Shown piece by piece: positions 38,027 through 50,384 of a stretch of 64,000 nucleotides of DNA; the stretch's first letter is position 1; the number at the start of each line of letters is the position of its first letter. This DNA comes from Myxococcales bacterium (GTDB lineage Bacteria > Myxococcota_A > Polyangia > Haliangiales > Haliangiaceae). The stretch lies in the NCBI GenBank assembly GCA_028287135.1, contig JAQBQE010000028.1, forward strand, positions 16,529 to 80,528, given 5' to 3'. The notes beneath the pieces are model-generated. The model was not told where the DNA came from, ran no database searches, and saw nothing but the letters and a program-made list of their open reading frames with translations. The position numbers were made by a program, and so were the translations under genes.

Positions 38027-38898
38027 TCGATCTGCACGGCATCCTCATCGTCGACAAGCCCGCTGGCGTCTCGTCCGCGCTCGCCGTCGATCGCGTCAAG
38101 CACTCGCTCGGTGTCCGCCGCGTGGGCCACGGCGGCACGCTCGATCCGCTCGCGACCGGCGTGCTCGCGATCTGCCTCGGGGGAGCGACCAAGCTCGCGC
38201 CGTACCTGCTCGCCGATGACAAGGAGTACATCGCGGACGGGATCCTCGGCGTCGAGATGGACACGCTCGATCGCACCGGTGCGATCACAGCCGAGCGCGA
38301 GGTCGCGGTCACGCGGGAGGCGATGCTCGCCGCGATCGAGCAGTTCCGCGGCGAACAGGATCAGATTCCGCCGATGTACTCGGCGATCAAGCAGGGCGGG
38401 GTGCGGATGTACGAACGCGCGCGCGCGGGCGAGGAGGTCGAGCGGGCCGCGCGCCGGATCCGGATCGATCACCTCGAGCTCGTGATGTTCGAGCCGCCGC
38501 GGTTCCGGATCGCGGTCGCGTGCAGCAAGGGGACGTACATCCGCAGCCTGGTCGCGGATCTCGGCACCGCGGTCGGAGCCGGTGCTCACCTCGCCGAGCT
38601 GCGGCGAACGCGCGCTGGAAAATTCACGATCGCGCAGGCGGTGCCGCTCGATCGCGTCGGCGTGATCGACCTCGCGCCCCACCTGTTCGGCATGAGTGCG
38701 GCGATCACCTTGCCGGCCGTGGTCGTCGCCGACGAGCTCCACCATCAGATCCGGAGCGGGCTTCAGATGCCGGTGGAAACCCTGACCGCCGAGAACCACG
38801 AGCGATTCCAGATCGTTGCCACCAGCGGCCGGCTGCTCGCGATCGTCCATCCCGAGGACGGCAAGGTGATCTACGACCGTGTGTTCCCCGAGCCTTGA
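38023..38898 (+). CDS. truB: tRNA pseudouridine(55) synthase
   Basis: GILIVDKPAGVSSALAVDRVKHSLGVRRVGHGGTLDPLATGVLAICLGGATKLAPYLLADDKEY; TTG 38023 overlapping TGA is the only plausible start. Confidence 0.93.
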   Translation: MIDLHGILIVDKPAGVSSALAVDRVKHSLGVRRVGHGGTLDPLATGVLAICLGGATKLAPYLLADDKEYIADGILGVEMDTLDRTGAITAEREVAVTREAMLAAIEQFRGEQDQIPPMYSAIKQGGVRMYERARAGEEVERAARRIRIDHLELVMFEPPRFRIAVACSKGTYIRSLVADLGTAVGAGAHLAELRRTRAGKFTIAQAVPLDRVGVIDLAPHLFGMSAAITLPAVVVADELHHQIRSGLQMPVETLTAENHERFQIVATSGRLLAIVHPEDGKVIYDRVFPEP

Positions 38899-43529: not shown

Positions 43530-45853
<2,324 letters not shown>

Positions 45854-45862
<9 letters not shown>

Positions 45863-46127
45863 TGCCCGAGCCAGGGACGCTTTCCACTGTCTCAACTCTC
45901 GATCCGGAAATGCGCGAATTCACAGACCCCAGAAGGGACGGTCTCCACTATCTCCGTCCTACCCCCGACCTCAGCGCTCAGCGGCACGATCGGGACATTG
46001 CGCGCCTGGCCCCACGACTCGAACCGAGAAAGTGGAGACCGTCCCTTTTGACACCAAGGATCTCGCAAGGTTCCATGTCGAGAGTTGAGAAAGTGGAAAG
46101 CGTCCCTGGCTCGGGGGCCGCGTGCTG
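45854..46127. repeat. REP/MITE-like nested inverted-repeat element between purC and purL
   Basis: Outer arms 45865-45902 and 46078-46115 (38 nt, one mismatch, inverted); inner arms 45933-45954 and 46026-46047 (22 nt, one mismatch, inverted); flanking direct repeat GCCGCGTG(A/C)TG at 45854-45864 and 46117-46127. Confidence 0.85.
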
Positions 46128-49100
46128 ATCATCGGCGGCCGCGCAGCACTGAGCGCGGCGCGGAAGGCGCGCGTACTCGCGAAGATCCGCGCGGCGTTTC
46201 CCGGTGTCACCGGGCTCGAGACGCGGTGGGCGCACCTGCTCACGACGACGCGTCCGCTAGCTGCGGCCGAGAGGGCGCAACTCGAGCAGATGCTGACGTA
46301 CGGGCCGGCAGAGACGCCGGCGGAGGCGAGCGGGCCGAGCGAGACGTTCTGGATCGCGCCGCGGCTCGGCACGATCTCGCCGTGGTCGTCCAAGGCGACC
46401 GACATCGCGCATGTCTGCGGCCTCGACGTGGTCACCCGGATCGAGCGCGCGATCGCGTACACGTTCGCGGGGCGCGGCGATCCGGCGGCGATCGGCGCGC
46501 TGCTCGCGGACCGGATGACCGAGAGCGTGATCACACGCGAGACCGACTTCGCGCTCGTGATCGGAGGTCATGGCGGGGAGCCGCGTCCTCTCGGTCACAT
46601 CGAGCTCGGCGCGAACGGAGCGGCGACCCTGCGCGAGGCAAGCAACCGGCTCGGTCTCGCACTCGCCGACGACGAGATCGAGTACCTCGTCGCCAAGTAC
46701 GGCGAGCTCGGTCGCGATCCGACGGACGTCGAGCTGATGATGTTCGCGCAGGCGAACAGCGAGCACTGCCGCCACAAGATCTTCAACGCGGAGTTCTTCG
46801 TCAGCGGCGTGAAGCAAGAGAAGTCGCTGTTCCAGCTGATCAAGCGCACGAACGAGGTCAGCCCGGGTGGCGTGCTCTCGGCGTACAAGGACAACGCGGC
46901 GGTCGTCGAGGGCTCGGTCGCGACCCGGTTCTTCCCCGGCGCCGATCACGCGTACCGCGGCATCACCGAGCCCGTGCACATCCTCGGCAAGGTCGAGACT
47001 CACAACCATCCCACTGCGATCTCACCGTTCCCCGGCGCGGCGACCGGCTCGGGTGGCGAGATCCGCGACGAGGGTGCGACCGGTCGCGGCGCCAAGCCGA
47101 AGGCTGGCCTCGTCGGGTTCACGGTCTCCGATCTGCGGTTCCCTGGCGCGCTCGAGCCGTGGGAGCCCGCGGCAGGCGAGTGGATCGGATCGCCGTCGCG
47201 GATCGCGAGCGCGCTCGAGATCATGACCGACGGCCCGCTCGGCGGCGCCGCGTTCAACAACGAGTTCGGCCGTCCCGCGATCCTCGGGTACTTCCGGACG
47301 TTCGAGCTCCCCGAGGGGGCTACCGTCCGCGGCTATCACAAGCCGGTGATGCTCGCCGGTGGCATCGGGTCCGTGCGCGAGACCCACGTCCAGAAGGCGA
47401 AGGTCTCCGCCGGCGCGGCGCTGATCGTCCTCGGCGGACCGGCATTCCTGATCGGGCTCGGCGGTGGTGCGGCGAGCTCGGTCTCGCAGGGCGCCTCGGC
47501 GGAGGATCTCGACTTCGCATCGGTGCAGCGCGAGAACGCGGAGATCCAGCGCCGCTGCCAGGAAGTGATCGATCGCTGCTGGGCCCAGGGCGACCACAAC
47601 CCGATCCTCTCGATCCACGATGTCGGCGCCGGTGGCCTGTCGAACGCCATGCCGGAGCTCGTGCACGACGCCGGCCTCGGCGGCACGCTCGAGCTCCGCG
47701 CGATTCCGACCGGCGAGCCGGATCTGTCGCCGCTCGAGCTGTGGTCGAACGAATCGCAGGAGCGCTACGTGCTCGCGATCGATCCGGCGCGCGTTCCCGA
47801 GTTCGCGGCGCTGTGCGAACGCGAGCGCGCGCCGTGGGCGCAGCTCGGTACCGCCACGCCCGATGGTCGGCTGACCGTCACCGATCGGCGCGGTGGTCCC
47901 GCACCGGTCGACCTGCCGCTCGAGGTCGTGCTCGGCAAGGCCCCACGGATGACCCGTCGCGCGGAGCCCGTCGCTCCGGCGCGGGTGCCGCTCGATCTGC
48001 GCGGTGCGACCGTCGCCGAGGCGCTCGACCGCGTGCTCGGACTGCCGACCGTCGCCGACAAGTCGTTCCTCGTCACGATCGGCGATCGCACCGTCGGTGG
48101 CATGGTCGCGCGCGACTCGATGGTCGGTCCGTTCCAGGTCCCGGTCGCGGACTGCGCGCTGACCACGGCGGGCTTCGATACCGATGCGGGCGAGGTGATG
48201 TCGCTCGGAGAGCGGCCGCCGGTCGCGCTGCTCGATGCTGCCGCCGCGTCGCGCCTCGCGATCGCCGAGGCAATCACGAACTTGATGGGCGTGCCGATCG
48301 GCGAGCTGTCGCGGATCAAGCTGTCGTGCAACTGGATGGCCGCCGCCGGGCACCCCGGTGAGGATGCGCGGCTCTACGACGGCGTGCGCGCGGCGAGCGA
48401 GACCGCGGTCGCCCTCGGCATCTCGATCCCGGTCGGCAAGGACTCGATGTCGATGCGCACGGTGTGGGCCGCCCCGCCGTACGCGGCATCGACCGGCGCA
48501 GCGGGTTCTGCGACGGCGGGCGCACCCGGATCCTCGTCAGCCACCGCCTCCGCGACCGCTGCCACGCTCGCCGACATCGAGCGTTCGATCTCCGGTGGCC
48601 CGGCGCCCGGCTCACCGGCTGCGACGCCCGAGAACGCGGCGATCGATCGCGAGCTCGCGGAGCTCGAGCGTGCTGCGCAGAAGACGCTCGATCTCGAGGA
48701 GCTCGCGCGCATGCGCGGGGATCAGCCCGGCGCGCGTGGCGACACATATGCGGCGCAGACGTACGGTTCGAAGGTCGGAGCCGCCGTCGCGGCGGCGGAT
48801 GCGATCGGCGATCGCGTTGCTGCCGGTTCATCGGTTCCCTTCGTGCCGTCCGCCACGCCGGCGACGGCCGCCGCGTCGACGCGCTCGGTGGTCTCGCCGG
48901 TCACGCTCGTCGTCACCGCGTTCGGACCGGTCACCAGCGTGCGCGCGGCGGTGACGCCCGAGCTGCGCGGCGACGGTCACGAGCTGCTGCTCGTCGATCT
49001 CGGCGCCGGCAAGGGACGGCTCGGTGGCTCGTGTCTCGCCCAGGTGTTCGGCCAGCTCGGCGACGTGCCGCCCGATCTCGACGATGCGAAGCTGCTCGCC

Positions 49101-50384
49101 CGCGTCTACGTCGCGTTCCAGGAGCTGCTCGCGGCGAGCAAGCTCACCGCGTATCACGATCGGTCCGATGGCGGCCTCGTGGTCACTGCGCTCGAGATGG
49201 CGTTCGCCTCGGGCCTCGGGCTCGAGCTCGACACGTCGAGCGTGCATGCGGATCCGTTCGCCGCGCTGTTCGCGGAGGAGCTCGGCGCGGTGATCGAGGT
49301 CGCTCCGGCCGATGCTGCTCACGTCCGCGCCACGCTCACGGCGGCGGGTGCGCAGGTCCATCCGATCGGCCGTGCGTTCAAGGGCGATCGCGTCCGCATC
49401 ACCCACGCCGGTGCGACCGTGATCGACAGCAAGCGCACCGAGCTGCGCGCGCGGTGGTCGCACGTCACCCACCAGATGCAGCTGCTGCGCGACGATCCGA
49501 CGTGCGCCGCCGAGGAGCATGCGACGCGCCTCGACCCCGATGCGCCGGGCCTCACCGCAGACCTGACGTTCGACCCGGCGATGCCCGTCGTCGCGAAGAA
49601 GACGGCGAAGCCGCCGCGCGTCGCGATCCTGCGCGAGCAGGGCGTCAACGGTCAGATCGAGATGGCGACCGCGTTCCACCTCGCGGGCTTCGAGCCGGTC
49701 GACGTCCACATGACGGATCTGATCGAGGGCCGCTTCGATCTGACCGACATGCGCGGCGCGGTCGCGTGCGGCGGGTTCTCGTTCGGCGACGTGCTCGGCG
49801 CCGGTCGCGGCTGGGCGGCGACGTTCCGCTACAACCCGCGCGCTCGCCAGGCGCTCGCGACGTTCCTTGGTCGCGACGACACGTTCCTCCTCGGTGTCTG
49901 CAACGGCTGCCAGATGCTCGCGGATCTCGCCGATCAGCTCCCGGGTGCCGCGCAGTGGCCGCGGTTCGTTCGCAATCGCTCCGAACAGTTCGAGGCGCGC
50001 GAGGTGCTGCTCGGGATCTCCGAGAGCCCGTCGATCTTCTTCCGCGGCATGGCGGGCTCACGGATCCCGGTCGCGAACGCGCACGGCGAGGGCAGGGCAG
50101 AGCTCGATCCGGCCCAGCTCGCTGCGATCGAGAGCGCGGGCCTGGTTGCCGCGCGGTTCGTCGACGGTCGCGGCGCGGTCGCTTCGACGTATCCCGCGAA
50201 TCCGAATGGCTCACCCGGCGGCATCGCGGCACTGACGACCGCCGATGGCCGGAAGACGATCATGATGCCGCACCCCGAGCGTGTGTTCCGCAACGCGCTG
50301 CTGTCCTGGCATCCGCGTGAGTGGACCGCCGACCACAGCCCGTGGATGCGGATGTTCGAGAACGCGCGCGCCTGGGTCGGCTAG
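46122..50384 (+). CDS. purL: Phosphoribosylformylglycinamidine synthase (single-chain PurL) with ~140-aa insertion
   Basis: [20 protein letters not shown]…[34 protein letters not shown]…C-term GATase: [15 protein letters not shown]…[13 protein letters not shown]…[30 protein letters not shown]; GTG start. Confidence 0.95.
   Translation: [1420 protein letters not shown]

Follow-up and report, generated by a model that had tools for sequence, protein, structure and literature searches.

A twin-motif inverted-repeat pair, probably of the TIRYT/TIRtron type, between purC and purL in a myxobacterial genome

TIRYT/TIRtron elements, as described in the text of Di Nocera et al. 2013 (PMC3733652), carry a Y1 gene within long inverted repeats, one arm of which overlaps the 3′ end of the transposase gene, and the same repeats also occur elsewhere in the genome singly, as dimers or in groups. 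The repeats reported here share all of these features, and the sequence GGGGWSAS, given in that text for some TIRs but not all, agrees with GGGGACGS here at 7/8 positions. They differ from the published description in that each arm consists of two direct motif copies at a fixed spacing of 56-61 nt, and in the myxobacterial host. Most TIRYT/TIRtron members fall within subclass 2.1 of a later TnpA-REP survey, for which its text gives a C-terminal HTH domain (PMC6006769). The text of neither paper (PMC3733652, PMC6006769) mentions a twin-motif repeat of fixed spacing, and any claim to novelty is limited to that text. With the terms applied, an open-access literature search returned neither a REP insertion between purC and purL nor myxobacterial REPs. 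Like the present repeats, the REPs and REPINs associated with RAYTs (PMC3116915) are non-autonomous, are dispersed alongside a Y1 transposase that is single-copy and vertically kept, and occupy gene ends, where they supply TAG stops; RAYTs are also stated to be vertically kept in PMC8049555, and the text of PMC3733652 reports that GTAG REPs provide TAG stops in a comparable way. Bacterial MITEs such as NEMIS and ERIC, as summarised in the text of PMC3733652, are likewise short inverted-repeat elements by genes that can fold in mRNA, whereas the units here are Y1-linked and lack both a conserved interior and a general target duplication.

The window, a 64,000-nt stretch of a Myxococcales assembly (GCA_028287135.1, contig JAQBQE010000028.1, positions 16,529 to 80,528), holds a 251-nt element (45865-46115) that separates the stop of purC from the GTG of purL (Table 1). 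It contains four exact copies of GGGACGsTyTCCACTnTCTC, two on each strand. Reading of the sequence bears out an earlier description of these as two nested inverted pairs, with outer arms of 38 nt and inner arms of 22 nt and one mismatch in each, and a repeat finder merges the motifs into 93-nt arms that are 78% complementary, with 65 nt between them. The imperfect 11-nt direct repeat proposed for the flanks is also present, GCCGCGTGATG with the purC TGA and GCCGCGTGCTG with the purL GTG being identical at 10/11 positions. The long RNA hairpin suggested at the same time is reproduced by prediction, the junction RNA having a folding energy of -158.7 kcal/mol (shuffled sequences, -96.9 ± 4.9; z = -12.6, far past chance). 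We read the insert as a non-autonomous inverted pair of TIRYT/TIRtron terminal-repeat units, with a probability of roughly 0.8.

Table 1. Features of the purC-purL junction (positions in the window).
Feature	Position	Strand	Remarks
purC	44864-45862	+	332-aa ORF; TGA 45860-45862; orthologues 65-85% identity in 13 genus mates
Left flanking direct repeat GCCGCGTGATG	45854-45864	+	holds purC stop; scored against mismatched flank pairs and shuffles
Inverted repeat, left 93-nt arm	45865-45957	+	repeat finder
Left 81-nt unit	45874-45954	+	motif A 45874-45893, motif B 45935-45954, 61 nt apart
Spacer separating the two B motifs	45955-46025	.	unrelated to spacers of other pairs
Inverted repeat, right 93-nt arm	46023-46115	-	repeat finder
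Right 81-nt unit	46026-46106	-	motif A 46087-46106, motif B 46026-46045
GGGGG ahead of purL start	46113-46117	+	possible ribosome-binding site
Right flanking direct repeat GCCGCGTGCTG	46117-46127	+	holds purL start GTG 46122-46124; scored against flank pairs and shuffles
purL	46122-50384	+	1420-aa ORF

The element is not single-copy. In the assembly of the source genome (G000; 4.84 Mb in 71 contigs, 59.5% complete) 31 full 81-nt units were readable, in agreement with the sequence-only reading, which had expected a multi-copy repeat; about 30 units thus lie dispersed elsewhere in the assembly. In each unit motif A (GGGACGCTTTCCACTsTCTC) is followed, after about 41 less conserved bases, by motif B (GGGACGGTCTCCACTTTCTC) in the same direction, with an A-B distance of 61 nt in 29/31 units and 60 nt in the remaining two, and conservation starts near GAGCyA ahead of A and ends at the end of B. 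About ten inverted pairs are formed, always with B on the inside (A>B..<B<A), and the remaining units are single or in tandem. The spacers of the pairs are mutually unrelated, and the arms of one pair are no closer to each other than arms from different pairs. Consequently, the basic unit is taken to be A-B, and the element in the window two such units face to face. Formation of the pairs by inverted duplication of one unit was rejected, as same-pair arms were no closer than random units. At two loci (L057:2656-3100 and L047:2427-2614) whole units with flanking bases stand in direct tandem, with periods of 149 and 106 nt, which indicates that some copies arose by local duplication.

The proposed link to a Y1/RAYT-type transposase was found on contig C44, where a pair of units (C44:37423-37503(+) and 38489-38568(-)) encloses a 324-aa ORF instead of a spacer. 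The encoded protein passes the Pfam Y1_Tnp cut-off (25.8 bits, cut-off 23) and scores 37.4 bits, below the cut-off of 80, against the NCBIfam model REP_Tyr_transpos (REP-associated tyrosine transposase). NH.H and YIHNNP are kept in six of its relatives; relatives with 41-54% identity occur in the same genus and in metagenome genomes named as Myxococcales or Deltaproteobacteria, and a search by sequence for relatives of solved structure gave none of use. At the C-terminus, HTH-like and Bac_DnaA_C matches were obtained, all under the curated cut-offs, and the final residues (..GEKVETVP*) and the stop codon are encoded within motif B of the flanking unit. The gene adjoins argB in G000, G008 and G001, and scoB in G000 and G013. 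As the same neighbourhood thus recurs in several species, the transposase gene looks vertically kept. Across L045:7481-8455 with its flanks (C44), L126, L242, L251 and L081, the position of the transposase locus by argB and/or scoB appears constant in several species of the genus, and the repeats are species-specific. Two more Y1 transposase genes lie about 8 kb apart on contig C55 (L046; 43636-43980 and 51980-52330), with the motif absent nearby.

The same layout is seen in other genomes of the genus. Twin direct GGGACGsT motifs stand at both ends of the cognate transposase in G013 (56 and 56 nt), G001 (61 and 61 nt) and L126 (61 and 61 nt), and at one end only in G003 (60 nt); each genome with such ends has its own motif sequence. 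Among the G013 units read, 33/34 have the 56-nt spacing and one has 57. The G004 transposase has spacings of 35 nt on one side and 67 nt on the other, and a single motif is found at each transposase end in UBA2376 and SXJR.

In four relatives (G014, G005, G003 and G001) the site is empty and purC runs into purL, with NTGA overlaps at the junctions of G014 (GCCGCGTGATC), G005 (ACGTGATC) and G003 (GCGTGAAG). The ancestral GTGA overlap and empty site postulated from the window are thus recovered in sister genomes, and comparison with them shows that the insertion abolishes the overlap of the two genes. The outcomes that the sequence-only reading named as refuting it, a single-copy sequence conserved with purC/purL in distant relatives or empty sites lacking the GCCGCGTGnTG junction, were not observed. 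Other members of the genus carry inserts of their own: G013 a single unit of the G013 family, G007 (L067 / L177) 344 nt with GCTTTGCGG tandem repeats that recur elsewhere in that genome, and G004 (L064) a nearly single-copy 181-nt insert readable as a short ORF from TGATG to just before the purL start. Assignment of the G007 insert to the same family was rejected, as it holds the unrelated GCTTTGCGG-type short repeat. Judged across these genomes, the junction is filled repeatedly in the genus.

An alternative is an ancestral insert that passed to G000 and G013 and that the other genomes lost precisely through recombination between the flanking repeats. A unit does occupy the junction in both, and further sites are shared, for instance a Rieske-type convergent junction (L056:2960-3260; L227, L220, L221), where G000 and G013 have unit pairs specific to each species, G008 and G005 carry other repeats, and just a few bases are present in G004, G007, G014 and G002; likewise, a gene end on contig C32 is common to a G000 unit and a G004 element. 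At the Rieske-type junction of G005 (L221) several copies of a different palindromic repeat, GGGGTCCGACCCC, are present, which likely belongs to another Y1 transposase family. Against inheritance, the G000 and G013 units each belong to their own family, and the G013 and G007 flanks offer no duplication to recombine. The tree would moreover demand several separate precise losses: built from distant genomes on PurC and PurL, the two genes at issue, it groups G000 with the empty G003 and G005 at a support of 98. An ancestral insert is therefore unlikely, and separate insertion events are favoured; sites shared between species could reflect hot spots or concerted rewriting.

The flanking repeat bears on a second alternative, in which a classical cut-and-paste MITE moved the 251-nt element whole and left an 8-11 nt target-site duplication. 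The element has inverted-repeat ends, its flank pair (GGAGCCGCGTG/GGGGCCGCGTG, 10/11 identical) outscores all 72 mismatched flank pairs, and the empty G014 site shows the expected junction (GCCGCGTGATCGTCATC). Conversely, the flanks of the eight further pairs tested score no higher than mismatched ones, leaving a duplication at 1/9, and duplication as a general property of the element was rejected accordingly. The unrelated spacers and the equal distances within and between pairs are unlike copies of one master. In addition, the linked enzyme is of the Y1 type, and Y1 transposases are not known to generate target duplications. Transfer of the element in this manner is hence quite improbable. 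Composition shuffles of the junction flanks gave p about 0.02 for the window, 0.05 for G004, 0.82 for G007 and 0.98 for G013; as an account of all four inserts, a junction duplication judged by flank similarity does not hold in G007 or G013, and in G004 it is borderline. The target duplication of the sequence-only reading is thus real at purC-purL, modestly past chance, and does not extend to the family. It probably reflects stop and start signals retained locally under selection rather than a signature of transposition, because an insertion in the overlap survives only if purC keeps its stop and purL its ribosome-binding site and start. In relatives with an empty site, the G-rich run ahead of the purL start falls in the last purC codons (the counterpart of 46113-46117 in G014 among them), which suggests that the duplicated stretch is what purL needs.

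A third alternative treats the units as true REPs or REPINs of a RAYT; the motif would then be a palindromic REP, and the pair would form a REPIN or BIME. The REP-type Y1 transposase and the many dispersed extragenic copies are in line with it. However, the motifs taken singly barely fold (energies of -0.8 and -1.1 kcal/mol, with z = -1.0 and z = -0.2, within the shuffles), the recurring doublet is direct with a 61-nt distance instead of inverted, and a GTAG or CGTC tag with an adjoining palindrome is absent, all at variance with the REP/REPIN pattern (PMC3116915). With single motifs hardly palindromic and a direct doublet, only the higher-order pair being inverted, the third alternative is very unlikely. 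Of the initial REP/MITE-like label, the multi-copy repeat with a Y1 link stands, and the REP in its strict sense does not fit. The organisation of the units instead matches that of the TIRs of a TIRYT. A last alternative regards the insert not as a mobile repeat but as a regulatory RNA element retained in the pur operon (an attenuator or processing site). Its very stable predicted fold and its place between two cistrons of one pathway speak for this reading, which is extremely improbable given about 30 copies elsewhere, its absence from the junction in sister genomes, and searches of the insert in which nothing in Rfam matched at E ≤ 1 and which gave neither a terminator nor a promoter; a single-copy regulatory element was rejected by copy number.

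The units also abut stop codons. In G000, nine unit ends create a TAG stop, in frame and at a constant offset, right at the edge of the unit, and 16/33 units do so in G013, where eight more have a stop within 3 nt (coding frames were called by a simple method, from codon-position G+C). In G000, G008 and G007 argB ends in AGC TAG GGACG, followed in each by an element, and full argB genes in other genomes end in TGA or TAA; a G013 fragment ends in TAG with no GGACG after it. The G001 argB retains its TGA despite the transposase element downstream, which shows that a unit-supplied stop is common and not universal. A broader scheme, offered tentatively and held at well under even odds, is that a domesticated Y1 transposase, fixed near argB/scoB in this genus, drives twin-motif units which insert specifically at stop codons, often swapping in their own TAG, with units at the same gene ends rewritten to the motif of each species and transposase and repeats changing in concert.

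In the mechanism proposed for the TIRYT-type pair, the C44 transposase would act in trans on A-B units via the single-strand cleavage that characterises IS200/IS605 enzymes, and units would settle beside stop codons. A unit pair would then have landed within the purC-purL overlap (GTGA); it may have moved as one piece or as separate units, since arms within pairs are no closer than random units. On its left side the surviving insertion would have kept the stop, and on its right a G-rich ribosome-binding site with GTG, through the local duplication of about 11 nt. By ending the overlap and placing a very stable predicted hairpin between the cistrons, it may weaken the translational coupling of purL to purC, partly sequester the GGGGG before the GTG and so lower purL translation, or plausibly protect the upstream mRNA. 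Effects of this sort on mRNA have been proposed for REPs and MITEs.

The locus thus provides a natural experiment, in which a mobile repeat splits overlapping genes of a core pathway, with empty-site sisters at hand and a second hit at the junction by a different repeat family. The transposase gene appears stationary, and its dispersed repeats adhere to a strict two-motif arrangement and lie at stop codons. In combination, this makes the target choice and host retention of RAYT/TIRYT systems directly testable.
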